From Aquisphaera giovannonii (GTDB taxonomy: Bacteria; Planctomycetota; Planctomycetia; Isosphaerales; Isosphaeraceae), in assembly GCF_008087625.1 (NCBI RefSeq), contig NZ_CP042997.1, positions 6,386,001 to 6,450,000 on the forward strand: 64,000 nt of DNA, given 5' to 3'. This document shows positions 2,040 to 35,642 of the stretch, piece after piece (the first letter of the stretch is position 1; each line of letters begins with the position of its first letter). The notes under the pieces were generated by a model. That model was not told the DNA's origin, searched no databases, and saw only the letters and a list, made by a program, of their open reading frames with translations. Made by a program: the position numbers and the translations under genes.

Positions 2040-3560
2040 ATGATTCGGCTCGATGACGAGTTTTCGCGGCGTTCGCTCCTACTCTGGCTCCCCGGTGCGT
2101 TGATGTCGGGCCTGGCCATGGCGTCTCCGCAGCCCCCCTCGCCGCCGGCCGCGAGACCGTCCCGGACGAACGTGCCGCGGCTGCCCGGGGCGGTCACGAG
2201 GCCGCCCGAATGGCTGGGCCCCGAGGCCCCGTTCGACGTCGCCGCCTACTTCAAGGCGCCGCCCGACGACCAGAACGCGGCGCCCCTCTACCTCGACGCC
2301 CTCTTCGAGTTCGGCCCCGAGATGGCGGTCTGCTTCCCGGAAGGCCCCGTGCGTGCCCGCCGCGAGCGAACCGCCAAGGAGCGGATGAGGCGGTATGCCG
2401 AGGTCGCGAAGTCCCTGGAGCGGGGGCCCGACGCCGTCCCGCCCCGGGAGATGAACGCCTTCCTGGCGCTCTACGACGAGGGGCTCGCGAAGCTCGCCCG
2501 CGCGCAGGAGCGGCCTCGCTGCGTCTTCCAGGCGGGCATCGGCATGAACGCGTTGCTCCCGCACCTCCAGGACGCCCGCAATGCCGGCCGGGTGCTCCTG
2601 TGGAAGGCCCGGCGCCTGATGGAGCAGGGGAGCGTGCCGGGCGCCTTGCAGCAGGCGTCTCGAGTGCTGCGGCTCGTCCGGGACCTCCAGCCGCGGGGCT
2701 TCACCATCGCGGCGATGGTGGGCGTGGCCCTGGAGCGGCTGGCGATGAACGAGGTGTTCTTGCCGCTGCTGCAGTCCCGGGGGCTCAAGGCCGAGCACTG
2801 CGACGCCGCGCTGGCGATACTCCGCGAGCACGACTCGAAGTCGATCGACGTGTATTCCGAAGTCTTGCGGGGCGAGTACCTGCTCTGCCGATCGACGCTC
2901 CGCGACCTGGTCCTCCACCAGGACCAGTTCCGCCGCGACCTGGGCGCCGCGGGCGTCCGCATCGGGCCGTCGCTCGTTGAGTCGGTCCTCGATACGAACA
3001 GGAGACCGGGCCAGGGAACGCCAGTCACCGGGCCCGGGGCGACCTCCGACCTCGACGCGAAGATGGCGAGCATGACTCCGTCGGAGCTCGCCCGACAGGA
3101 GGCGAAGCTGACCGCCCTCTACCGGGACCGGCTCGGCCTCGCCGGCACGCCCTATGCCGAGCGGATCCGCCGCCTCGCGGAGCCGCCGGCCGAGGGCCGT
3201 TCCGCCGACATCCTCACGCGGGTCGCCCTGGGCCTCGTGCCCGCCCCGGATAGCGTCCCATGGTCCGCGCTCGTCCAGGCCGCACTCCGCAGCTTGCAGG
3301 CCCTGACCGCCGTCCGCCGCTGGCAAATCCGCCATTCCGGCCAGCTGCCCGCGTCCCTCGAGTCCGCCGCCAGGGACGCCGGCCTCGCCCGATTTCCGAT
3401 CGATCCCTACACCGGGGGCCCGGTCCGCCTGGCGATCCTCGACGGCAAGCCCGTCGCATACTGCCTCGGCGAGGACGGCAAGGACGACCAAGGGCGGACG
3501 GCGGCCACCCGCCCGGGTCAGCGCGGCGACGTCGTGCTCCGCATGCCCGACCAGAAGTGA
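2040..3560 (+). CDS. Secreted protein of unknown function, copy 2 of a tandem pair
   Basis: A 506-residue protein from the ATG at 2040. The N-terminus has SRRSLLLWLPGAL, a plausible twin-arginine signal, unlike the Sec-type signal of the upstream copy. The rest aligns along its length with the neighbour: PRLPGAVTRPPEWLG, FDVAAYF, YLDALFEFGPEMAVCFPEGP, then RAQERP.CVF, a LxILxEHDxKSID block, and the C-terminal DPYTGGPVRLA / GEDGKDDQGR / GDVVLRMP block. It lies 102 bases after the first copy in the same direction, so co-transcription and origin by tandem duplication are likely. No catalytic motif is recognised. Confidence 0.82.
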   Translation: MIRLDDEFSRRSLLLWLPGALMSGLAMASPQPPSPPAARPSRTNVPRLPGAVTRPPEWLGPEAPFDVAAYFKAPPDDQNAAPLYLDALFEFGPEMAVCFPEGPVRARRERTAKERMRRYAEVAKSLERGPDAVPPREMNAFLALYDEGLAKLARAQERPRCVFQAGIGMNALLPHLQDARNAGRVLLWKARRLMEQGSVPGALQQASRVLRLVRDLQPRGFTIAAMVGVALERLAMNEVFLPLLQSRGLKAEHCDAALAILREHDSKSIDVYSEVLRGEYLLCRSTLRDLVLHQDQFRRDLGAAGVRIGPSLVESVLDTNRRPGQGTPVTGPGATSDLDAKMASMTPSELARQEAKLTALYRDRLGLAGTPYAERIRRLAEPPAEGRSADILTRVALGLVPAPDSVPWSALVQAALRSLQALTAVRRWQIRHSGQLPASLESAARDAGLARFPIDPYTGGPVRLAILDGKPVAYCLGEDGKDDQGRTAATRPGQRGDVVLRMPDQK

Positions 3561-3609
3561 AACGGGGCCGTCATGCTTTCTCGCAACCGGGAGGGCGATG
3601 CGACGGGAT

Positions 3610-4464
3610 TCAATCCCTCAGGACACGCCCGCCGGATAAATGATGGACCTCCGATCCGTCGTCCACGCAGAGGGCACCCCGAGGGTCGATGTCCGTGGCG
3701 CGGCCGGCGAGGATTCGCGGGCCGAGGTCGATGCGGACCGGCTTGCCGCGGAGCAGATTGAGGTGGTCCCACTCCCGGGCCTGCTCCGGGCTGTCGTCCC
3801 TCAGGCGGCGGAGCTCGAGGTCCAGGTGCGTCAGGATGGCGGCCAGGGCCCGGGGGATCGAGGACGCGTCGAGCGGGCCCGCGCCCATGGCGGCGAGGGA
3901 GGTCGCCATGCGCGAGACCTCATCCGGCGCCTCGTCGAAGCGGGTGAGGACGTTCAGGCCGATTCCGATGACCAGGAGGTGGCCCGACGGCCCCTCGAGG
4001 CCATCCCGCTCGATCCGCTCCGGGAGGATGCCGCAGAGCTTGCGGCCGCAGGCCTCGACGTCGTTGGGCCAGCGGATGCCGAGGCCCGGGACGACCCACC
4101 CGAGGGACCCGATCGCGTGGATCACCGCCAGGGCGGCCGCCAGCGAGAGCCTCGGCTCCTGGTCCACGCGGAGCCCGTGCGCGGCCGGGTCGATGGCGAC
4201 GGTGAACGTCAGCGAGCCGTCGTCGGAGAACCACGACCGATCCCGCTGCCCGCGGCCCAGCGTCTGCCGGTCGGCCCAGACGAGCAGCGGGAGCTCGTCC
4301 ACGCCCTGGAGGACGAGGCTGCGGGCGAGCCAGTTCGTCGAGTCCACGACCGGCCGATGGAGCACCGTCCGGGCGAACGGCAGGGGATCCCGCACGGAGG
4401 CACCCTGGAGGGAGGTTTCCGCCGGAAGTCGTGTGTCCTGATCGGCCTTCCACGCATCTTTCAT
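3610..4464 (-). CDS. birA: Biotin--[acetyl-CoA-carboxylase] ligase
   Basis: This 284-residue protein activates biotin with ATP and attaches it to the biotin carboxyl carrier protein of acetyl-CoA carboxylase and related enzymes in the cytoplasm. Motifs of the family are clear: DSTN at 41-44, the biotinyl-AMP loop GRGQRDRSW at 70-78, RWPNDV at 131-136 with the following lysine (K142, GRKLCGIL), and GIGLNV. There is no N-terminal helix-turn-helix, so this is a class I enzyme without the repressor function of E. coli BirA. The first 30 residues are not conserved-looking, and the true start could be slightly downstream. It converges on the tandem secreted-protein genes and stands alone. Confidence 0.92.
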   Translation of the reverse strand: MKDAWKADQDTRLPAETSLQGASVRDPLPFARTVLHRPVVDSTNWLARSLVLQGVDELPLLVWADRQTLGRGQRDRSWFSDDGSLTFTVAIDPAAHGLRVDQEPRLSLAAALAVIHAIGSLGWVVPGLGIRWPNDVEACGRKLCGILPERIERDGLEGPSGHLLVIGIGLNVLTRFDEAPDEVSRMATSLAAMGAGPLDASSIPRALAAILTHLDLELRRLRDDSPEQAREWDHLNLLRGKPVRIDLGPRILAGRATDIDPRGALCVDDGSEVHHLSGGRVLRD

Positions 4465-24216: not shown

Positions 24217-26355
24217 ATGATTGGGAAGCGCATCGTGCCGGCCGTGGCCCTCCTCGCGGGTTGTGCATGGGCCGCAGCCTCGGAGCCCGAAGACGTGAGC
24301 GGAGCCCGCCATTACCCGGCCGCCCCGAAGTCGGAGACGGTCGAGGAACTGCACGGCGTCAAGGTCGCCGACCCGTACCGGCCGCTCGAGGATCCCGATG
24401 CGCCCGAGACACGCGCCTGGGTCGAGGCCGAGAACAGGATCACGTTCTCTTTCCTCGAGGGCGTCCCCCAGCGGGCCGGCATTCGGGCGAGGCTGACGGA
24501 GCTCTGGAATTACGAGAAGTACGGCGCCCCCGAGGTCCGAGGGGGCAAGTATTTCTACAGCTTCAACACCGGCCTCCAGAACCAGTCGGTGCTCTACGCG
24601 GCGGACTCGCTCGACGGCGCCCCCCGCGTGCTCCTCGACCCGAACACGCTGTCGGCCGATGGAACCGTCGCGCTCGCGGGCGGGAGCATCACGGACGACG
24701 GCAAGCTGTTCGCCTACGGGACCGCCGCGGCGGGCTCGGATTGGAACGAGTGGAAGGTCCGCGACGTCGCCACGGGGAAGGACCTCGACGATCACATCAA
24801 GTGGGTGAAGTTCTCGGGCGCGGAGTGGGATCCCGAGCACGCCGGCTTCTATTACGGCCGGTTCCCCGAGCCGAAGCCGGGCGCCGACCTGAAGGGGGCG
24901 AACTACTACCAGAAGGTCTATTACCACAAGCTCGGCACGCCGCAGTCCGCCGACCGGCTGGTCTGGGAGGACCCGGAGCACAAGGAATGGCGCGCGGGGG
25001 CGACCGTCACCGACGACGGGGCGTACCTGATCCTGACGCTCGGCAAGGGGACCGACGCCAAGCACCGCGTCCTGTTCCGGCCCTACAAGGACGCGGACGC
25101 GAAGCCGGTCCACCTCGTGGGCGACTTCGACTCCGAGTACTCGTTCATCGACAACGGCGGCCCCGTGTTCTGGTTCCAGACGAACAAGGACGCGCCCCGG
25201 GGCAAGGTCGTGGCCATCGACACGCGGAATCCGGGGCCGGCGCACTGGGCGGACGTCGTCCCGGAGTCGGCCCAGACGCTCGAGTCGGTCGACGTCGTGG
25301 GCGGCCGGATCCTGGCCGTCTACCTCGAGGACGCGCACACCGTGGTGAAGGCCTTCGACCTCTCGGGCAAGCACCTCCGCGACGTGGCGCTGCCGGGCCT
25401 GGGCACGGCGGCGGGCTTCCACGGCAAGCGGACGGACAAGGAGACCTTCTTCTCGTTCACGTCGTTCGCGAGCCCGGGGACGGTGTACCGATACGACGTC
25501 GGGTCCGGTGCGGTCTCCGCCTGGAAGGAGCCGAGGCTCGCGTTCGATCCGTCGGCCTACGAGTCGATCCAGGTCTTCTACAAGAGCAAGGACGGGACGC
25601 GGATCCCGATGTTCCTGTCCTACAAGAAGGGCCTCAAGCGGGACGGGAACAATCCGACGCTCCTGTGGGGATACGGCGGCTTCAACATCGCCGTCAAGCC
25701 GGGCTTCCGGCCGTCGGCCCTGGCCTGGATGGAGATGGGGGGCGTGTACGCCGTGGCGAATCTCCGCGGCGGCGGCGAGTACGGCGAGCAGTGGCACCAG
25801 GCCGGGACCCGGGCCAACAAGCAGCACGTCTTCGACGACTTCATCGCCGCGGCCGAATGGCTCATCGCGGAGAAGTACACGAGCAAGGCCAAGCTCGCCA
25901 TCCAGGGGCGATCGAACGGCGGCTTGCTCGTCGGCGCCTGCATGACCCAGCGGCCGGACCTGTACGGCGCGTGCCTGCCGGGCGTCGGCGTGATGGACAT
26001 GCTCCGCTTCCACAAGTTCACGATCGGCTGGGCCTGGACCGACGACTACGGCACGCCCGACGACCCGGAGCACTTCAAGGCGATCCGCGCCTACAGCCCG
26101 CTGCACAACATCAAGCCCGGGACGTGCTACCCGCCGGCGATGATCACGACCGCCGACCACGACGACCGCGTCGTGCCCGCCCACTCATTCAAGTTCGCCG
26201 CCGCCCTCCAGGCAGCCCAGTCGTGCGACAACCCGGCCCTGATCCGGATCGAGACGAAGGCCGGCCACGGCGCGGGCAAGCCGACCGCCAAGCAGATCGA
26301 GGAGGCGGCGGACGAGCTGGCGTTCCTGGTCAGGACGCTGAAGGTCGGGGAATGA
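24217..26355 (+). CDS. Prolyl oligopeptidase, S9A family
   Basis: This 712-residue serine peptidase cleaves peptides after proline. An N-terminal hydrophobic stretch (AVALLAGCAWAAA) predicts export, possibly as a lipoprotein (AGC). Residues about 35-80 hold the entry motif KVADPYRPLEDPDAPET, then a seven-bladed propeller follows up to about 430. The alpha/beta-hydrolase domain carries YGGFNIAVKP, the nucleophile elbow GRSNGG (Ser 566), ADHDDRV with the catalytic aspartate at about 648-650, and GHG with His 684. All three triad members are present, so it should be active. It is monocistronic, with the disrupted M60 peptidase gene diverging from it. Confidence 0.95.
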   Translation: MIGKRIVPAVALLAGCAWAAASEPEDVSGARHYPAAPKSETVEELHGVKVADPYRPLEDPDAPETRAWVEAENRITFSFLEGVPQRAGIRARLTELWNYEKYGAPEVRGGKYFYSFNTGLQNQSVLYAADSLDGAPRVLLDPNTLSADGTVALAGGSITDDGKLFAYGTAAAGSDWNEWKVRDVATGKDLDDHIKWVKFSGAEWDPEHAGFYYGRFPEPKPGADLKGANYYQKVYYHKLGTPQSADRLVWEDPEHKEWRAGATVTDDGAYLILTLGKGTDAKHRVLFRPYKDADAKPVHLVGDFDSEYSFIDNGGPVFWFQTNKDAPRGKVVAIDTRNPGPAHWADVVPESAQTLESVDVVGGRILAVYLEDAHTVVKAFDLSGKHLRDVALPGLGTAAGFHGKRTDKETFFSFTSFASPGTVYRYDVGSGAVSAWKEPRLAFDPSAYESIQVFYKSKDGTRIPMFLSYKKGLKRDGNNPTLLWGYGGFNIAVKPGFRPSALAWMEMGGVYAVANLRGGGEYGEQWHQAGTRANKQHVFDDFIAAAEWLIAEKYTSKAKLAIQGRSNGGLLVGACMTQRPDLYGACLPGVGVMDMLRFHKFTIGWAWTDDYGTPDDPEHFKAIRAYSPLHNIKPGTCYPPAMITTADHDDRVVPAHSFKFAAALQAAQSCDNPALIRIETKAGHGAGKPTAKQIEEAADELAFLVRTLKVGE

Positions 26356-26515: not shown

Positions 26516-27400
26516 TCACTTCGGGTCGAGGTTCTGCTTGAGCTCTTCGGGGGTGACCTGGGCGTCGAAGCCCCCCTCGGGGACCTCCAGTCCGGCTGTC
26601 CAGAGGATGGCGTTCAGGACGAGCTTGCGGAAGTTCGGGTCGCCCCAGTTCTTGTGGAAGTGGGCGCCGGTGAAGCCGAAGCCGCGGCCGCCGTCGGGAC
26701 GCTCGACGGCCCAGGCGAGGACCTCGTCGCGGCCGCTCGCCTCGACGATGTGCTTGTAGGGGCCGCGGGGGGACGCGGAGACGCCCTTGCGGGTCGCGTC
26801 GTCGGGCTTCGCCACCAGGATCGGGGTGACGCCCTTCATCTCGGGGCGGAAGCGGATGTTGAAGTACCATTCGTCGCCGATGGCGAAGGGCCCCACGCCC
26901 GAGGTGATCGGGTGCTTGGGCAGGGACTGGACGTCGGCCTTCCAGTGCGGGTTGGTCGAGAAGCCGGTCTCGTAGTAGCCGCCGATCCAGTCCAGGAACT
27001 TGTCGCCGGGCTTGCCCTTGGGCACCTCGACGGCGTAGTGCAGGCAGGCGATCCCGACGCCCTTGTCGGCCAGGGCCTGGAGCTTCTCCAGGTGGTCGCC
27101 CTGGATCATCGGGTGGCCGCCGCCGCCGTCCATGAAGAAGACCAGGGCCTTCGCGCCGTCGAAGACGGACTCATCCTTGGGCCAGCCGCCCGTGACGACG
27201 ACGGGCTCGATGCCCGGCCTCTGCGCCAGGCACTTGGCGAGGAGCTTGCAGCCGGCGTTGAACTCGTGGTCGCCCGGCCCGTGGCTCGGCCGGCCGGCGA
27301 CCAGGACGATCTTGGTGGTGTCGGCGGCCCGGGCGGCGGCCGCCATGCTGCCCGTCAGCAGGCCGGCGGCCATCAGGCCGATCGCGAGGTTCCGTGCCAT
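26516..27400 (-). CDS. ThuA-like domain protein, secreted
   Basis: A 294-residue protein starting at the ATG at 27400 (GGGAGA upstream) with a signal peptide ending near AARAAD. The rest matches ThuA-like proteins, a class I glutamine amidotransferase fold found in sugar-utilisation clusters: IVLVAGRPSHGPGDHEF at the start, DGAKALVFFMDGGGGHPM, GVGIACLHYAVEVP, the aromatic GGYYETGF, and a late GRGFGFTGAHFHKNWGD. Family members are of uncertain biochemical function but are repeatedly paired with Gfo/Idh/MocA oxidoreductases, and one lies immediately upstream here. Confidence 0.88.
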   Translation of the reverse strand: MARNLAIGLMAAGLLTGSMAAAARAADTTKIVLVAGRPSHGPGDHEFNAGCKLLAKCLAQRPGIEPVVVTGGWPKDESVFDGAKALVFFMDGGGGHPMIQGDHLEKLQALADKGVGIACLHYAVEVPKGKPGDKFLDWIGGYYETGFSTNPHWKADVQSLPKHPITSGVGPFAIGDEWYFNIRFRPEMKGVTPILVAKPDDATRKGVSASPRGPYKHIVEASGRDEVLAWAVERPDGGRGFGFTGAHFHKNWGDPNFRKLVLNAILWTAGLEVPEGGFDAQVTPEELKQNLDPK

Positions 27401-27551
27401 GGAAGGTCTGTCTCCCTGCGAGGCTGGGGGTTGAGGTCCGGGGATTGGTCGGGGGAATGAAAAGCCCACCGGGCTCGTCGACGAGGTCGAGGCGCGGTGG
27501 GCGGTTGAGGTCGATGGCCCGTCGGCGCGGGACGGCTCCGGTCCGATCGGA

Positions 27552-28826
27552 TCAGATCAGCTCGGTCACGCCCGGGCGCGGGAACGGCGGCTCGGGGACC
27601 GTGCCCTTGATGTCCAGCGGGACGGGGAACGTGTCCAGCTTGGAGTTGAGCGCCTGCTCCCAGGTGATGGCCTTGCCCGTGTAGGCGGACATCCGGCCCA
27701 TGATCGCGACCAGGGTGCTCTCGGCGACCTGCTTCAGCTCGTTGATCGGCTTGGAGGTCGTGATGCTCTCCAGGAGGTCGATGTGCTCCTGGACGTAGGG
27801 GTTGATGCCCCTCGCCCGGACGCGGGACTTGTCCTTGCCGGTGAAGCGGTAGCCGCCGCTGTGCCACTGGCCGGAGGTCCCGACGAACGTCTCGGAGACG
27901 TTGGACTCGGTGTCCGGGATCTGGCGGCACATGGACGCGATGTGGACGCCGTTGGGGAACTCGTAGTCGACGGCGAAGTGGTCGTAGCTGTTGCCCCGCT
28001 CCGGCTCGGGCGCGGCCTGGCGGCCGCCCATTCCGACGGCGCGGACCGGCGGCGAGCCGAGGGCCCAGCATGCGACGTCCAGGTTGTGGACGTGCTGCTC
28101 GACGATGTGGTCGCCGCAGAGCCAGAGGTAGTGGTACCAGTTGCGGATCTGGTACTCGGTGTCGCTCCAGCCCGGCTGCCGCTTGACGGCCCAGATGCCG
28201 CCGCCGTTCCAGTAGACCTGGCCGGAGACGATGTCGCCGATGGCCCCCTCGTGGATCCGCTTCATGCTCTCGACGTAGCCGGCCTCGTGGCGGCGCTGGG
28301 TGCCGGCGACGACGCAGAGCTTCTTGGCCTTGGCCTCCTCGTAGGCGGCGAGCACCTTGCGGATGCCGGCCGGGTCCACGCCGACGGGCTTCTCGGTGAA
28401 GAGGTTCTTGCCCGCCTTGATCGTGGCCTCGATGTGCAGGGGCCGGAAGCCCGGCGGGGTGGCGAGGAGGACGAGGTCGCAGGCCTCGATGACCTTCCTG
28501 TAGCCGTCGAGCCCGACGAAGAGGCGCTCGTCGGCGACGTCGAACTTGTCCTTGCCGTGCTCGCTGTTCTTGATCGCGTCGCGGCAGTTGCGGACGCGGT
28601 CCTCGAAGACGTCGGCCAGGGCGTGGATCTTGATGTTGTAGGTGGTGCCGGCGGCCTCGCAGATGTTGTCCGCCGCCCCGGTGCCGCGCCCGCCGCAGCC
28701 GACGAGGCCGACCTTGATGGCGTCGTTGCCCCGGGCGTGGGCGTTGGGGAGCAGTCCGAGGCCGGCCGCGGCGGCGGTCGAGGCCTTGAGGAAGTCTCGG
28801 CGGTGGGAGCCGAAGGGGCCTGTCAT
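27552..28826 (-). CDS. Tat-exported Gfo/Idh/MocA-family oxidoreductase
   Basis: This 424-residue protein begins at 28826 behind AGGAGA. Residues 8-30 (SHRRDFLKASTAAAAGLGLLP) form a clear twin-arginine signal, so it is folded with its cofactor before export. The Rossmann motif is VGCGGRGTG (42-50) and the family EKPVG is at 145-149, followed by the substrate domain with GTQRRHEAGY and WLCGDHIVEQHVHNLDV. Such enzymes oxidise or epimerise sugars and cyclitols with NAD(P). In planctomycetes exported versions are numerous, and their natural substrates are mostly unknown. The neighbours are ThuA-like and SUMF1-domain genes. Confidence 0.93.
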   Translation of the reverse strand: MTGPFGSHRRDFLKASTAAAAGLGLLPNAHARGNDAIKVGLVGCGGRGTGAADNICEAAGTTYNIKIHALADVFEDRVRNCRDAIKNSEHGKDKFDVADERLFVGLDGYRKVIEACDLVLLATPPGFRPLHIEATIKAGKNLFTEKPVGVDPAGIRKVLAAYEEAKAKKLCVVAGTQRRHEAGYVESMKRIHEGAIGDIVSGQVYWNGGGIWAVKRQPGWSDTEYQIRNWYHYLWLCGDHIVEQHVHNLDVACWALGSPPVRAVGMGGRQAAPEPERGNSYDHFAVDYEFPNGVHIASMCRQIPDTESNVSETFVGTSGQWHSGGYRFTGKDKSRVRARGINPYVQEHIDLLESITTSKPINELKQVAESTLVAIMGRMSAYTGKAITWEQALNSKLDTFPVPLDIKGTVPEPPFPRPGVTELI

Positions 28827-28918: not shown

Positions 28919-29962
28919 CTAGCGGGTGGTCTTGCCCTTCACGACCTGGGACTTGAGGCCCTTGAGGTTCTCCTGCTCGGCGACCGGCCGGACGAGGCGG
29001 AAGCCGACGAAGGTGGCGTCGGTGTGCCACCAGATGCTCTGCGGGCGCTGGGGGTCCTGGACGCTCCATTCCGGGTTGGACGAGCGGCGGGCCGCCGAGC
29101 GGAGCTTCTCCGCGTCGTCGTCCCAGGAGCCGCCGCGGGCCACGTAGGGGTATTCCCGGGCGTCGGGGAGGACGACCGGGCCCAGGGTCGGCTTGTCGGC
29201 CGGGAGGGCCTTGTAGCCGTCGGCGACGTAATGGTCCAGGCACCACTCGGCGACGTTGCCGTGGATGTCGTAGAGGCCCCACGGGTTGGGCTTCTTCTTG
29301 CCGACGGGCTGGGGCTTCTCCGCGTTCTCCACGTACCAGGCGAAGTCGCCGATCATGGACGCGTCGTCGAACGAGTAGGGGGCCTTGGTGCCGGCGCGGG
29401 CGGCGTACTCCCACTCGGCCTCGGTGGGGAGGCGGTAGACCTTGCCGGTCTTCTCGGAGAGCCAGCGGCAGTATTCCATGGCCGCGTGGTGGGTGATGCA
29501 GATCACGGGCTGGCCCTTGCGGCCGAAGCCGAAGGTCTCGTCGGCGTAGGGCGGCGTGGGGCGGGTGACCGCGTCGGCCTTCTTCTCGGTCTCGGGCTGG
29601 CTGGTCAGGTCGACGTTGTCGCGCTTCTTCTTCTTCAGGTCGAGCTGGAAGGCGAACTGGTCGTACTCGTCCCAGGTGACCTCGCGGGCGCCCATCCAGA
29701 ACGGGGCGATCTTCACGGGGTGCTGCGGGCCCTCGTCGGCCCCGCGCTTCTCCTCGTCGTCGGGCGAGCCCATGACGAACTCGCCGCCGGGGATCGGCAC
29801 CATCTCGAACTTGAGGTCGGTGCCGGGGATGGTCTCGGTATAGGGCTTGAGGTCGGCCGGCGAGGCGGGGGCCGGCTCCTGGGCGGGGGCGGGGGCGGTG
29901 CAGGCGAGGGCGGCGACGGCCGCGGCGACCGCCAGGCCGCAGTTGTGCAACGGTCGGCTCAC
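28919..29962 (-). CDS. SUMF1/FGE-domain protein lacking the catalytic cysteines
   Basis: I start this 347-residue protein at the GTG at 29962, because it gives a standard signal peptide (about residues 5-28, ending APAQ) and a GGAG lies 12 bases upstream; in-frame ATGs farther up overlap the divergent gene. The SUMF1 fold is plain: FEMVPIPGGEFVMGS, REVTWDEYDQF, YCRWLSEKTGKVYRLPTEAEWEYAARAG, DIHGNVAEWCLD, RGGSW (about 276-280) and GFRLVR. True formylglycine-generating enzymes have two cysteines after RGGS; here the segment is RGGSWDDDAEKLRSAARRS with none. It is therefore probably a non-enzymatic or binding relative rather than a sulfatase activator. Confidence 0.85.
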   Translation of the reverse strand: MSRPLHNCGLAVAAAVAALACTAPAPAQEPAPASPADLKPYTETIPGTDLKFEMVPIPGGEFVMGSPDDEEKRGADEGPQHPVKIAPFWMGAREVTWDEYDQFAFQLDLKKKKRDNVDLTSQPETEKKADAVTRPTPPYADETFGFGRKGQPVICITHHAAMEYCRWLSEKTGKVYRLPTEAEWEYAARAGTKAPYSFDDASMIGDFAWYVENAEKPQPVGKKKPNPWGLYDIHGNVAEWCLDHYVADGYKALPADKPTLGPVVLPDAREYPYVARGGSWDDDAEKLRSAARRSSNPEWSVQDPQRPQSIWWHTDATFVGFRLVRPVAEQENLKGLKSQVVKGKTTR

Positions 29963-30047
29963 GTTTGATATGCTCCAGCGGTACGGGGTAGGTCCGGACT
30001 CATCGGTCTCACCGCGCCTCGAGCCTTCGTCCGCAAGGGGAGACTTC

Positions 30048-33000
30048 ATGCTCGCATCGCTCTCGGCCGCCTGGTTGTGTCTCGCGACAGCCGGGGCCTG
30101 CTCGAATCCGGGACCGGCGGGATCACTCGCGCGTTTCGAGTTCGTCGAAACGCACATGGGCTGCTCCTTCAAGCTTGTTTTATACTCCACCGGCGCGGGC
30201 GAAGCCAGAAGCGCCTCCCGGGCCGCATTCGATCGGATCGCGGCCCTGGACGCCTGCCTGAGCGACTACGACGCCGACAGCGAGCTCTCCCGCCTGGGGC
30301 TCCGATCGGGCGGCCCGCCGGTGCCGGTCGGGGCCGACCTCTTCGACGTCCTCCGCCTCTCCAAGGAGTTCCACGCGAGGACCGGCGGCGTCCTCGACGT
30401 CACGATCGCCCCGGTGGGCCGCCTCTGGAGGCGGGCCCGCCGCGACCGCAAGCTCCCCGACCCCGCGCTGCTCGCGAAGGCCCGCGACCTCGTCGGCGCG
30501 GACATGATGAAGCTGGACCCGGAGAAGCGGACCGTCCAGCTCACGAAGCCCGGCATGAGGCTGGACGTCGGCGGCATCGCCAAGGGCTACGCCTCGCAGG
30601 CCGCGATCGACGTCCTCCGCGCGCGGGGCGTCGCCAGGGCCCTCGTCGGCGGCGCCGGGGACATCGTGATCGGCGACCCGCCGCCGGGCGAGCCGGGCTG
30701 GACGATCGCCGTCTCCGGCCTGGACCCGAACGCCCCCGAGCCGCTCACGTACCTACTCCTGAAGAATTGCGCCATCTCGACGTCCGGGGACGCGGAGCGG
30801 TTCGTCGTCATCGACGGCAAGCGGTACTCTCACATCATCAATCCGGTCACGGGCATGGGGGTCGTGGAGCGGGCCAGCGTCACGGTCGTCGCGCCGGACG
30901 GCGGCACGGCGGATGCGCTGGAGACCTCGGTCTACATGATGGGCCCGGAGCGGGGATTGTCGCTCATCGAGGGCATGCCGGGCGTGGCGGCCGTCTACGT
31001 CCGGGAGACTCCGGACGGGCCCCGCGTCGTCGAATCGTCCCGCTTCAAGGAGCTGCCCCGGACGACGGCCAAGCCGGCCGCGGCGTCGCCGACGCTGCCC
31101 TCCATGACGCCCGAGTCGCTGGGCTTCGACCCGGAGCGGCTGGCCCGGATCGACGCGGCGATCGACCGCTCGATCGCGGCCGGCGAGGTCCCCGGCGCCG
31201 TGGTCCTCGTGGGCCGGCACGGGGCCGTCGCCCATGCCTACGCGGCCGGGAAGCGGGCCGTCGAGCCGGCGGCGGAGCCGATGACCCGCGACACGCTCTT
31301 CGACATGGCGTCGCTGACCAAGCCGATCGCGACGGCCTCGTCCATCATGGTGCTGCTGGAGAAGGGCAAGCTCCGCCTTTCGGATCGTGTGGTCCGTTAC
31401 CTGCCCGAGCTGGACCGCCACGGCAAGGGGAAGATCACGATCGAGCACCTGCTGCGGCATCGCGCCGGGCTGATTGCGGACAACCCCATCGGGGACTACG
31501 CGAAGGGGCCGGAGGAGGCCTGGAAGCGGATCGCGGACCTGGAGCTGATCGGGGAGCCGGGGGACAAGCTCGTCTATTCGGACGTCGGCTACATCATCCT
31601 GGGGAAGCTCGTCGAGCGGGTCTCCGGCCGGTCGCTGGACCGGTTCGCCGCGGAGCGGGTCTTCGGCCCCGCGGGGATGGCCGAGGCCCATTTCCGCCCG
31701 CTCGGCGCGGCCGGGCCGGTGCCCCCGGCGGGTCGCTGCGCGCCGACCGAGAGGGAGTCTCCGGGCGGGGCGATGCTCCGCGGCGTCGTGCACGACCCGA
31801 GGTCCCGGGCGCTCGGCGGGGTCGCCGGCCACGCCGGCCTCTTCGCCACGGCCGACGACCTCGCCGCGTTCGCCCGGATGCTGCTCGCGGGGGGCGTCGC
31901 GGAGAATGGCCGTCGCGTCCTCTCGCCCCTGACGGTCCGCGCCATGGTCGACCCCGGGGGGACGCCGACGGGCCAGCGCCGGGGGCTCGGCTGGGACGTC
32001 GCCACCGGGCAGAGCGGCCCGCGCGGGGCCCTCTTCGGGCCGGCCAGCTTCGGCCACACGGGATTCACGGGCACCAGCATCTGGATCGACCCGGAGACCG
32101 ACAGCTTCGTCATCCTGCTGACCAGCCGCCTCCATCCCGACGGCAAGGGGGCCTCGCCGGGGGACCTCCGCGCCCGGGTGGCGACCCTGGCCGCGGCGGC
32201 GATCGTCGATGCCCCCGCCTCCCGGCCGCCGACCGCGCCGGCGGGAGAGGCCGCCCCGTCCGCCCCGTCCGCCCCCGCCTCGAGGCCGGAGAACCCGGTC
32301 GCGGTGGCCTGCGGGATCGACGTCCTGGCCGCCGACGGGTTCCGGCTGCTCCAGGGCCGGCGTGTGGCGCTGGTGACGAACCACACCGGGCGTTCTCGCG
32401 ACGGCCGCTCGACGATCGACGTCCTCTTCCATGCCCCCGGGGTCAAGCTCGTCCGGCTGTTCGGCCCGGAGCACGGCATCCGGGGGGAGCTGGACGCGGC
32501 CGTGGCCGACGGCAAGGACGCGGCGACGGGCCTGCCGGTCGTCAGCCTGTACGGGGCCAAGCGGAAGCCGTCGCCCGCGGACCTGGAGGGGATCGACGAC
32601 ATCGTCTATGACATCCAGGACATCGGCGTCCGATATTACACCTACAGCACGACGCTCGGCCTGGTGCTGGAGGCGGCGAAGGAGTCGTCGAAGCGGCTCG
32701 TGGTCCTGGACCGGCCGAACCCCATCGGCGGCGAGGCGGTCGCCGGCCCGGTGCTCGACCCGGGCCTGGAGTCGTTCATCGGCTATCACGCCTTGCCGGT
32801 CCGCCACGGGATGACGCTCGGCGAGCTGGCCCGGCTGTACAACGGGGAGCGGAAGATCGGCGCCGCCCTCGAGGTGGTCCCCTGCAGGGGCTGGACGCGG
32901 GGGCGGACCTACGACCGGACGGGGCTGCTCTGGGTCAACCCGTCGCCCAACATGCGGAGCCTGACCGAGGCGCTGCTCTACCCGGGCGTCGGCTGGCTGG

Positions 33001-33440
33001 AGGCGACGAACCTGGCGACCGGCCGCGGGACCGATACGCCCTTCGAGCGGGTCGGCGCCCCGTGGATCGACCCGGTCGCCTTCGCCGCGGCGATGAACGC
33101 CTCCAGGGTGCCGGGCGCCCGGTTCACGCCCATCTGGTTCACGCCGACGGAGCGGCAGTTCAAGGGGGAGCGATGCGGCGGCGTCCTGATCATGATCGAC
33201 GACTGGTCGGCCTTCGACCCGCTCCGGCTGGGCGTGTCGCTGGCGGTGGCGCTGAGGCAGTCCTACCCGAATGAGTGGAAGCCGGAGAAGGTGCTCGGCC
33301 TGCTCGGCGACCGGGCCTCGCTGGAGTCCATCCGCCAGGGGAAGGGCGCCTCGGAGATCATGGCGATGTGGGGGCCGGAGCTCGAGGCCTTCCGGGAGGT
33401 CCGGGGCCGCTACCTGATCTACGACCGCGGCGCGGACTGA
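30048..33440 (+). CDS. Three-domain protein: ApbE flavin transferase + beta-lactamase-like serine hydrolase + NamZ-type (DUF1343) muramidase
   Basis: One 1130-residue protein holds three complete modules. Residues about 25-335 are ApbE (FAD:protein FMN transferase): DVGGIAKGYA at 173-182 and TADALETS near 286-293, the FAD/Mg sites. Residues about 350-720 are a beta-lactamase/esterase-type hydrolase: SLTK (nucleophile Ser near 422), YSD, and HTG near 669-671. Residues about 750-1128 are DUF1343, known from B. subtilis NamZ as an exo-N-acetylmuramidase: VTNHTG, FGPEHGIRG (PEHG at 807-810), YDIQDIGVRYYTY, LDRPNPIGG. The N-terminus is a signal sequence with a lipobox-like TAGAC, so it acts in the periplasm. 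In B. subtilis the amidase AmiE (beta-lactamase fold) and NamZ are separate, clustered enzymes of peptidoglycan recycling; here they are fused, with ApbE added. Confidence 0.9.
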   Translation: MLASLSAAWLCLATAGACSNPGPAGSLARFEFVETHMGCSFKLVLYSTGAGEARSASRAAFDRIAALDACLSDYDADSELSRLGLRSGGPPVPVGADLFDVLRLSKEFHARTGGVLDVTIAPVGRLWRRARRDRKLPDPALLAKARDLVGADMMKLDPEKRTVQLTKPGMRLDVGGIAKGYASQAAIDVLRARGVARALVGGAGDIVIGDPPPGEPGWTIAVSGLDPNAPEPLTYLLLKNCAISTSGDAERFVVIDGKRYSHIINPVTGMGVVERASVTVVAPDGGTADALETSVYMMGPERGLSLIEGMPGVAAVYVRETPDGPRVVESSRFKELPRTTAKPAAASPTLPSMTPESLGFDPERLARIDAAIDRSIAAGEVPGAVVLVGRHGAVAHAYAAGKRAVEPAAEPMTRDTLFDMASLTKPIATASSIMVLLEKGKLRLSDRVVRYLPELDRHGKGKITIEHLLRHRAGLIADNPIGDYAKGPEEAWKRIADLELIGEPGDKLVYSDVGYIILGKLVERVSGRSLDRFAAERVFGPAGMAEAHFRPLGAAGPVPPAGRCAPTERESPGGAMLRGVVHDPRSRALGGVAGHAGLFATADDLAAFARMLLAGGVAENGRRVLSPLTVRAMVDPGGTPTGQRRGLGWDVATGQSGPRGALFGPASFGHTGFTGTSIWIDPETDSFVILLTSRLHPDGKGASPGDLRARVATLAAAAIVDAPASRPPTAPAGEAAPSAPSAPASRPENPVAVACGIDVLAADGFRLLQGRRVALVTNHTGRSRDGRSTIDVLFHAPGVKLVRLFGPEHGIRGELDAAVADGKDAATGLPVVSLYGAKRKPSPADLEGIDDIVYDIQDIGVRYYTYSTTLGLVLEAAKESSKRLVVLDRPNPIGGEAVAGPVLDPGLESFIGYHALPVRHGMTLGELARLYNGERKIGAALEVVPCRGWTRGRTYDRTGLLWVNPSPNMRSLTEALLYPGVGWLEATNLATGRGTDTPFERVGAPWIDPVAFAAAMNASRVPGARFTPIWFTPTERQFKGERCGGVLIMIDDWSAFDPLRLGVSLAVALRQSYPNEWKPEKVLGLLGDRASLESIRQGKGASEIMAMWGPELEAFREVRGRYLIYDRGAD

Positions 33441-34204
33441 GGCTTCGCGGCGATGTCGGTCCGGGGTGCGTCCGCCCGGCCGCGTCTCCGGGGGCCCGGC
33501 GCCGGGCGATCGGGCTCGGTGTGCGGGTCGTCGGAGCGGTACTCGTCCCGGACCCAGGCGCGGAAGCGCCCGGGGGTGTGATCGAGCCCGCGGGCGTCCA
33601 GCCAGGCGGCGTACTCGTCCAGGGGCTCGTGGAGGTGCTGCGGTCCGAAGAGCGGGATGTGGCTGTGGTAGATCGTGAAGGCCCGCGACGCCCGGCGCGG
33701 GCCCTCGCCGAGGCGGACCATCAGGTAGAGCGCGGAGGCCAGCCCCGTCCGGTCGGCGCCCGCCTTGCAGTGGATCAGCAGCGGATACCGGCAGTCCTCC
33801 AGGACGTCGATCAGCGCGAGCAGCTCGTGGCGCCCGGGCCGCTTCGTGGCGCTCAGGGGGATGTCGTAGAAGGCGACGCCCCGGTCGGACGACGTGCGGA
33901 CCTCGGCGTCGTACCAGGGGTCGCGGGGCGACCCCCCGCGGAGGTTCAGGATCGAGGCGAGGCGATGCTCGGCGATCATCGCGGGGAGGCCGGCGGTGGG
34001 CTGGGCGGCCCGGATGACGACCCCCGGGTCGACCACGCCGACGTTGGCGCTCACCATGGGGCGGACGAGGAGGGCGGCCAGCCCGGCGGCGGCGGCCAGG
34101 GCGGCGAGCAGCGCGGCCCGGGCGGCGCGGCGGGCGATGCCCTTCCGGGGACGGCCGCCGAGGGCCGCGGGCGCGTCGGTCGTGACGTCGAGGGGGTCGG
34201 GCAC
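33419..34204 (-). CDS. Membrane-anchored tyrosine/dual-specificity protein phosphatase
   Basis: A 261-residue protein with one membrane segment (about residues 24-47) and a phosphatase domain carrying the signature HCKAGADRTG (145-154), where Cys 146 is the nucleophile and Arg 152 binds phosphate. The general acid is probably the Asp of YDIPLS (113-118). Bacterial proteins of this type dephosphorylate Tyr/Ser/Thr-phosphoproteins or act on phosphoinositide-like substrates; the target is unknown. The basic N-terminus before the helix suggests the catalytic domain faces the periplasm (inference). The last 22 bases overlap the 3' end of the convergent ApbE-hydrolase-NamZ gene. Confidence 0.87.
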   Translation of the reverse strand: MPDPLDVTTDAPAALGGRPRKGIARRAARAALLAALAAAAGLAALLVRPMVSANVGVVDPGVVIRAAQPTAGLPAMIAEHRLASILNLRGGSPRDPWYDAEVRTSSDRGVAFYDIPLSATKRPGRHELLALIDVLEDCRYPLLIHCKAGADRTGLASALYLMVRLGEGPRRASRAFTIYHSHIPLFGPQHLHEPLDEYAAWLDARGLDHTPGRFRAWVRDEYRSDDPHTEPDRPAPGPRRRGRADAPRTDIAAKPQSAPRS

Positions 34205-34464: not shown

Positions 34465-35403
34465 TCAACGGGCTCCCGGCTGGTTGGGGAGGGTCGGCGT
34501 CGTCGTGGCCGTGTTCGCAGCCCCCGCGGTGCCCCTCACGCCGAGCGAGAGGAACTCGATGGAACGGGCCGTGAAGGAGTACTGCAACATCGAATTCAGC
34601 ACGGTCTGGAACGGGGCGGCGAGCCGGTCCAGGAAGACCGTGGTGCGGACGATCGGGTCGCGATAGATCACGAGGCGGTCGCCGGGCATGAGCTGGTAAT
34701 TGGTCGTGGAGTCGCCGCCGCTCATGATGGCCGCGATGTTGACCGGCAGGGTCTGCTCGCAGCAGGCACCCGGCGGCGCCGGCCGCACCAGGCGGATGTT
34801 CCGGGGGGCCGCGGTGGGGAGCAAGCCGCCGGCGAACTCCAGGGCGTCGAGCACCGTCTCGTTGCCCGTGATCGGCAGCCGGCCGGGGGCCGCCACGTCG
34901 CCGAGGACGTAGTAGTTCTTGCTGTTGTAGCCGGTCACGTCGACGAAGACGGTCTCGCTGTCCTTGGGGTCTTTGTGCATCGGCTTGCCGTCCTTGTCGA
35001 GCTTGTGATGCCCCCCCTCGTCGCCTTCCTCGTCCTCGTAGAGCCCCAGGGCCTCGTCGGAGAGCGACTTCCGCAGGTGGAAGATGATCTTCTCCTTGGC
35101 CTCGCTGATCGTGAGGCCGGCGACGTAGACCTCGCCGTACCATCCCAGGGAGATCTTCCCGTCGGGGCGCACCAGCCGCTCGCCGGAGATCGGCCGCCCC
35201 GGCAGCGCCTCGAGGACCTCGACCAGGACGAGGTCGGGGGGCTCGATGACGTACTCGGGCATCGTGACCTTCTTGAACTCGCTCGGGATGTTGCTATTCG
35301 CGATCTTCTCCTCGGGCGTCTTCACGGTCTGGCAGCCGCTCGCGAAACCGACGACGAGCGTGAGCAGCAAGCCGGCCCGGCGGATCTTCCTTGTGCGTCC
35401 CAT
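34465..35403 (-). CDS. Polysaccharide biosynthesis/export lipoprotein, Wza-like
   Basis: The protein has 312 residues from the ATG at 35403 (GGGAGGGAG upstream) with a lipoprotein signal ending FASGC. The export domain begins at YVIEPPDLVLVEVLEALPGRPISGERLVRPDGKISLGWYGEVYVAGLTISEAKEKI, the typical opening of outer-membrane polysaccharide export proteins, and is followed by an SLBB-type part (YYVLGDVAAPGRLPITGNETVLDALEFAGGLLPTAAP, YQLMPGDRLVIYRD). An unusual charged insert (EDEEGDEGGHHKLDKDGK..., about residues 125-150) interrupts the export domain. It would form or assist the outer-membrane pore for exopolysaccharide. No glycosyltransferase or tyrosine-kinase partner is nearby. Confidence 0.9.
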   Translation of the reverse strand: MGRTRKIRRAGLLLTLVVGFASGCQTVKTPEEKIANSNIPSEFKKVTMPEYVIEPPDLVLVEVLEALPGRPISGERLVRPDGKISLGWYGEVYVAGLTISEAKEKIIFHLRKSLSDEALGLYEDEEGDEGGHHKLDKDGKPMHKDPKDSETVFVDVTGYNSKNYYVLGDVAAPGRLPITGNETVLDALEFAGGLLPTAAPRNIRLVRPAPPGACCEQTLPVNIAAIMSGGDSTTNYQLMPGDRLVIYRDPIVRTTVFLDRLAAPFQTVLNSMLQYSFTARSIEFLSLGVRGTAGAANTATTTPTLPNQPGAR

Positions 35404-35642
35404 GCACCACTCCCTCCCGGCACTCCGAGACCGGACCAACTGGCCCCCGGAAGCTTCGGATCATGGCTACCGCCGCGATCCATCGCGGCCGGCTCGGCTC
35501 GCCGCCGAGGCGATTCCTTGAACCCTTGAATCCCCATCCAACCGCGTGGGATGCCGGCCCCCGGATGGCGGGGCCGGCCTTGACACAACCTACAATCGGC
35601 ACATTCGCCCGCTCTCTCGAATCGAATCCCGCCGACGCGCCT

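Follow-up and report, generated by a model that had tools for sequence, protein, structure and literature searches.

What brings a flavin transferase of the ApbE family and two enzymes of peptidoglycan recycling together in one protein? The question is raised by a gene of Aquisphaera giovannonii, located on the forward strand of a 64,000-nucleotide stretch of DNA (the window, C1:6386001-6450000) from a near-closed genome of 10.53 Mb in 3 contigs (G000). The encoded 1130 residues comprise an ApbE domain, a serine beta-lactamase-like hydrolase and a NamZ-type exo-beta-N-acetylmuramidase. With a probability of about 0.78, the gene is a fusion specific to the Aquisphaera lineage, in which a rearrangement joined two already exported enzymes with separate tasks. 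Its parts are as follows.

30048..33440, + strand: three-module fusion gene, 1130 amino acids (Pfam; A. insulae orthologue)
30048..30098, + strand: hydrophobic N-terminus, residues 1-17, predicted signal peptide (A. insulae comparison)
30156..30995, + strand: ApbE (FAD:protein FMN transferase) domain, residues 37-316 (Pfam; PDB alignments; stand-alone class-C orthologues)
31032..31145, + strand: junction, residues 329-366, native ApbE C-terminus followed by the mature beta-lactamase-NamZ start, with a 7-codon in-frame indel relative to A. insulae
31152..32177, + strand: serine beta-lactamase-like hydrolase (S12, PF00144), putative AmiE-type amidase acting between N-acetylmuramic acid (MurNAc) and L-Ala (Pfam, motifs)
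32223..32333, + strand: Pro/Ala/Ser-rich linker from hydrolase to NamZ, fast evolving (dN/dS 0.43, dS 0.86)
32364..32963, + strand: NamZ_N (exo-beta-N-acetylmuramidase, N-terminal), residues 773-972 (Pfam 2.3e-81; NHTG, PEHG, YDIQDIG, DRPNPIGG)
32973..33422, + strand: NamZ_C, residues 976-1125 (Pfam 1.1e-43)

All four Pfam matches far exceed the gathering scores, and solved structures exist for relatives of all three modules. A preliminary description of the locus had reported three intact enzyme modules in one frame, and every motif quoted there (DVGGIAKG, SLTK, HTG, PEHG and YDIQDIG) was located. The ApbE domain matches PF02424 over positions 1-265 of the 266 in the profile (1.5e-68, 231.7 bits against a cut-off of 25.6) and keeps DVGGIAKG (residue 173), SHIINPVTG with the catalytic histidine, and ADALET. 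In alignments with PDB 4xdt and 4ifu the tyrosine of LSDYDADSEL falls on the Tyr/Asn position, which puts Tyr, not Asn, at the site that stacks on flavin adenine dinucleotide (FAD); a Tyr in contact with the isoalloxazine ring is typical of FAD-binding Ftps (PMC4767422). These features point to transfer of flavin mononucleotide (FMN) from FAD.

The beta-lactamase match spans residues 369-710 (2e-69) and contains SLTK (422-425), YSD (510) and HTG (670). The best NCBIfam model for this part is PBP4B, whose score of 152 bits does not reach the cut-off of 385, and the best PDB relatives are esterases; the PBP4B gene belongs to the murQ operon of Escherichia coli (PMC5061867). The hydrolase is a putative AmiE-like amidase. 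Both NamZ domains (PF07075 and PF20732) are complete, with PEHG at residue 807, YDIQDIG at residue 854 and PDB relatives 4k05 and 4jja; the predicted activity is release of MurNAc by exo cleavage.

The same three modules are present in one frame in Aquisphaera insulae JC669 (G001), with 89% identity in the ApbE domain, 86% in the hydrolase and 85% in NamZ. When genome contigs were scanned with the whole protein, this species gave the sole full-length match. Ratios of nonsynonymous to synonymous substitution (dN/dS) between the two species are 0.15 for ApbE, 0.20 for the hydrolase and 0.21 for NamZ at a dS of ~0.43, which indicates purifying selection on each of them; the linkers are less constrained (0.31 and 0.43). 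Each of the two genomes contains one NamZ and one class-C ApbE (the class of the fused domain) with no stand-alone backup, and both tasks therefore depend on the fused copy.

Restriction to two genomes would fit an artefact of assembly or frame that merged two genes, and an assembly error or absence from all close relatives had been named in advance as fatal to the claim of a fusion. Such an artefact is scarcely credible and is already refuted by A. insulae, in which the fusion is present: the assemblies of two species agree, the one examined here is near-closed, every indel in the coding region preserves the frame, and flanking synteny runs across the gene in both species.

The comparison set for the family consisted of 45 Isosphaeraceae genomes, and further loci of the phylum were inspected besides. 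NamZ occurs in 39 of the 45 genomes, and at 32 loci inspected in other family members it is fused to the beta-lactamase-like hydrolase without ApbE; the pair is also found in other families of the phylum. Within Isosphaeraceae these unfused beta-lactamase-NamZ proteins share 51-72% identity with the corresponding part of the Aquisphaera protein. A DD-peptidase(S12)-DUF1343 architecture was already recorded in a 2008 survey (PMC2605481). Such two-domain proteins have the same module order and motifs as the Aquisphaera fusion, but possess an N-terminal leader of their own and no ApbE domain.

The frame with all three modules was found only in A. giovannonii and A. insulae among the 45 family genomes, and no ApbE-beta-lactamase-NamZ fusion was met at any phylum locus inspected; ApbE was not found at the G209, G163 and G242 loci. 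Two long frames considered as further triple fusions, of 1321 residues in G003 and 1086 residues in G042, carry only beta-lactamase and NamZ. The earlier statement that no described protein has the three-module order thus stands for the genomes searched, where none was seen outside Aquisphaera, but does not extend to the beta-lactamase-NamZ fusion, which is itself common. Each part belongs to a known family, and the pairing of hydrolase and NamZ is itself already known; the one unusual element is the added ApbE, and what is new is the order of the three modules.

ApbE is present in all 45 family genomes (45/45), often three times per genome. Three kinds are encoded in A. giovannonii: class A is fused to DUF2271 and lies beside a PepSY_TM gene, class B has a DoxX gene as neighbour, and the fused domain belongs to class C. 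The ApbE-DUF2271 protein is encoded at L073:7781-9544 (G000:C1:6125780-6127543), with the PepSY_TM gene following. In five other genomes (G039, G041, G040, G010 and G025; loci L039, L040, L047, L050 and L038) a class-B ApbE gene is divergent to, and 2-5 kb from, a unit formed by an SSF sodium:solute symporter gene and the beta-lactamase-NamZ gene.

The fused domain is 75.9% identical to the stand-alone class-C ApbE of a third genome labelled with the same genus (G002) and 51-71% identical to the others, the likeness of 51-76% extending over the whole domain; the stand-alone proteins end about where the Aquisphaera fusion continues. In the 20 stand-alone class-C loci fetched from relatives, the gene adjoins divergent FGE-sulfatase and Gfo/Idh genes in every case (20/20) and ThuA in 17 of 20. 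No class-C ApbE fused or adjacent to NamZ was seen outside the one genus among the loci inspected. The left side of the fusion gene in the window has the same neighbours, and the right side those of beta-lactamase-NamZ.

24217..26355, + strand: prolyl oligopeptidase family gene, locus 1 side, also beside the unfused ApbE in G002
26516..27469, - strand: ThuA-like gene, locus 1 side (class-C ApbE context)
27552..28775, - strand: Gfo/Idh/MocA-type oxidoreductase, locus 1 side, end coordinate (start) provisional (class-C ApbE context)
28919..29962, - strand: FGE-sulfatase/SUMF1-like gene, divergent, locus 1 side, adjoining the stand-alone class-C ApbE in relatives
29963..30047, no strand: 85-bp intergenic region separating the fusion gene from the divergent FGE-sulfatase-like gene, containing AGGGGAG and strongly conserved in A. 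insulae
33419..34204, - strand: tyrosine/dual-specificity phosphatase-like gene, locus 2 side, 3' neighbour of unfused beta-lactamase-NamZ in relatives
34465..35439, - strand: Poly_export/SLBB gene, locus 2 side, second 3' neighbour of unfused beta-lactamase-NamZ

The left flank is thus a class-C ApbE locus, and G002 has an unfused class-C ApbE with the same left neighbours, including a prolyl oligopeptidase gene nearby. The right flank is a beta-lactamase-NamZ locus; in the closest genera the unfused gene is followed by the phosphatase gene and then by the SLBB/Poly_export gene. Up to the join the protein has the C-terminal sequence native to ApbE, ESSRFKELPRTTAKP; beyond it the beta-lactamase-NamZ part begins with its mature N-terminus, LP...PESLGFDPERL. 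What has disappeared between the two mature proteins is thus the stop codon of ApbE and the signal peptide of its partner, so that a single leader peptide serves both parts. In trees of both halves the fused pair stands beside the sister genus G027-G032, and its nearest neighbour in the ApbE tree is G002. Support is 100/100 for the fused pair and 86/65 for the G002 node; the agreement between the trees is consistent with vertical descent of each half.

Under the proposed mechanism a chromosomal rearrangement would have placed the conserved gene for the exported ApbE of locus 1 (ThuA, Gfo/Idh, FGE-sulfatase, ApbE) directly upstream of the likewise conserved gene for the exported beta-lactamase-NamZ protein of locus 2 (beta-lactamase-NamZ, phosphatase, SLBB). 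Loss of the ApbE stop codon and of the signal peptide of the NamZ protein would then have left a single product that relies on the ApbE leader for export, and the fusion could be tolerated since each partner was already active beyond the cytoplasm. The serine hydrolase would strip the stem peptide from MurNAc in the manner of AmiE, NamZ would free terminal MurNAc, which the cell could take up again and MurQ convert, and the ApbE domain would independently transfer FMN from FAD to Thr/Ser of another protein. The domains and motifs, the origin from two loci, the conserved frame, the purifying selection and the single copy of each half are observed, whereas we infer secretion, the three activities and the lack of coupling between them; this account of independent enzymes is the simplest. 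It would make the locus a clean case of a rearrangement breakpoint giving rise to a three-enzyme protein, and a caution that a multidomain protein need not signal a pathway link.

A single inversion could have produced the join, because in G031 class-C ApbE and beta-lactamase-NamZ are on opposite strands ~142 kb apart. Two points weigh against the account of a rearrangement between independent enzymes. No reciprocal breakpoint of a single inversion was found in A. giovannonii: the gene for aspartyl-tRNA synthetase (AspRS), the old 5' neighbour of beta-lactamase-NamZ, is at 6.88 Mb, far from that for citrate synthase, the old 3' neighbour of ApbE, at 1.62 Mb, and the 3' flank of the unfused ApbE in G002 has no match there. 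In addition, retention of the fused frame at a dS of ~0.43 in two species would also fit selection for a function of the fused protein as a whole. Near AspRS in A. giovannonii two direct copies of ~1.55 kb are present, 75% alike (L180:660-2194 and 2775-4303).

A role of the hydrolase-NamZ half in MurNAc recycling, as proposed in the preliminary description for the amidase-like and NamZ pair, is supported by gene neighbourhood, because genes for a symporter, MurQ and a sugar kinase adjoin the pair in relatives. In 16 relatives the gene immediately preceding beta-lactamase-NamZ encodes the SSF symporter, and linkage to recycling genes is seen at loci L041 and L042; the order is symporter, beta-lactamase-NamZ, MurQ and sugar kinase in G037, and symporter, beta-lactamase-NamZ and MurQ in G038. 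These loci point to a candidate MurNAc-recycling unit typical of Isosphaeraceae, made up of symporter, amidase-like hydrolase plus NamZ, MurQ and kinase. In A. giovannonii a symporter-MurQ-sugar kinase unit is found at L183:6146-9507 (C1:8847145-8850506; MurQ match 348.7 bits against a cut-off of 302), apart from the only NamZ gene of the genome. Several relatives have another, more distant type of NamZ, at 41-43% identity, whose gene lies after or beside MurQ and sugar kinase genes (L051, L068, L069, L070 and L071).

One of the closest known parallels is that of Bacillus subtilis amiE and namZ (ybbE/ybbC), where ybbC corresponds to namZ. The same two enzyme families occur there in a MurNAc-recycling setting, but as separate genes and with a phosphotransferase system transporter instead of the SSF symporter of Isosphaeraceae. 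The murQ-murR-murP-amiE-nagZ-ybbC cluster of B. subtilis holds both amiE and ybbC (PMC5061867). In Tannerella forsythia the murT-murK-murQ operon combines a sodium symporter, a sugar kinase and MurQ (PMC5790795), together as at L183 and L041, whereas the unit of A. giovannonii lies 2.4 Mb from the fusion gene.

For an ApbE enzyme, a substrate motif in the same protein or next door is usual, though not obligatory. Neither D-x-x-[ST]-G-A-[ST] nor [ST]GA[ST] is present in the fusion protein, and no D-x-x-[ST]-G-A-[ST] occurs in any window frame of at least 80 amino acids; the earlier suggestions of self-flavinylation and of a flavinylated partner encoded nearby thus found no support. FMN_bind, DUF3570 and NqrB/RnfD gave no match in the genome despite its three ApbE genes, and its single DUF2271, the one fused to class-A ApbE, is without an [ST]GA[ST] motif. 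For class C, which occurs throughout the family, no substrate is recognised in A. giovannonii. ApbE in multidomain proteins is known from ApbE-DUF2271 fusions (PMC8238504), of which A. giovannonii also has one, and from the ApbE-fumarate reductase of trypanosomatids (PMC12052999); there, however, the partner is the flavinylation substrate, while the partner in the Aquisphaera fusion lacks the motif.

Coupling of flavinylation to peptidoglycan recycling, through a redox partner of the hydrolases or the fusion itself, is judged improbable, though it ranks ahead of the other alternatives. It would account for the constraint on all three domains and for the frame retained in two species, and the class-B ApbE 2-5 kb from SSF-beta-lactamase-NamZ in five genomes would be a second case of physical closeness; yet that closeness may go back to a single arrangement passed on by descent, NamZ and class-C ApbE are apart in those family members that were checked, and the motifs are missing as described. 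Since the ApbE half derives from an unrelated locus, the fusion does not by itself demonstrate a pathway link between ApbE and wall recycling. A particular form of such a link, between extracytoplasmic flavinylation and recycling, for instance a redox protein flavinylated at a non-canonical site and acting together with the MurNAc-releasing enzymes, is a little less probable still; if it were true, the same connection would have left its mark in other genera in the class-B ApbE near SSF-beta-lactamase-NamZ. Equally doubtful is a lost or changed function of the ApbE domain, whose main use would now be to lead and carry the two hydrolases. The dearth of substrate families in the genome would suit such a decay, but this gap is genome-wide rather than peculiar to the fused copy, and decay is unlikely because ApbE is the most constrained module, with catalytic and FAD-binding residues kept. 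The fusion of two independent enzymes by rearrangement is therefore preferred.

The open frame extends from 29847 to 33440 on the forward strand and is longer than the gene chosen. The ATG at 30048 is most likely the start, because a Shine-Dalgarno-like AGGGGAG stretch lies upstream, the ATG is common to A. insulae, and a 1-nucleotide indel just 5' of it breaks every longer frame shared by the two species. A separate start for the hydrolase part was ruled out, as the ATG at residue 353 is missing in A. insulae. With regard to export, the hydrophobic N-terminus MLASLSAAWLCLATAGA predicts a signal peptide, but it has no positive charge, and the exported protein of the preliminary description is retained as a prediction only. 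A lipoprotein anchor was likewise ruled out, the apparent lipobox Cys18 being Val in A. insulae. Across 28 codons at the N-terminus the dN/dS between the two species is 1.2.

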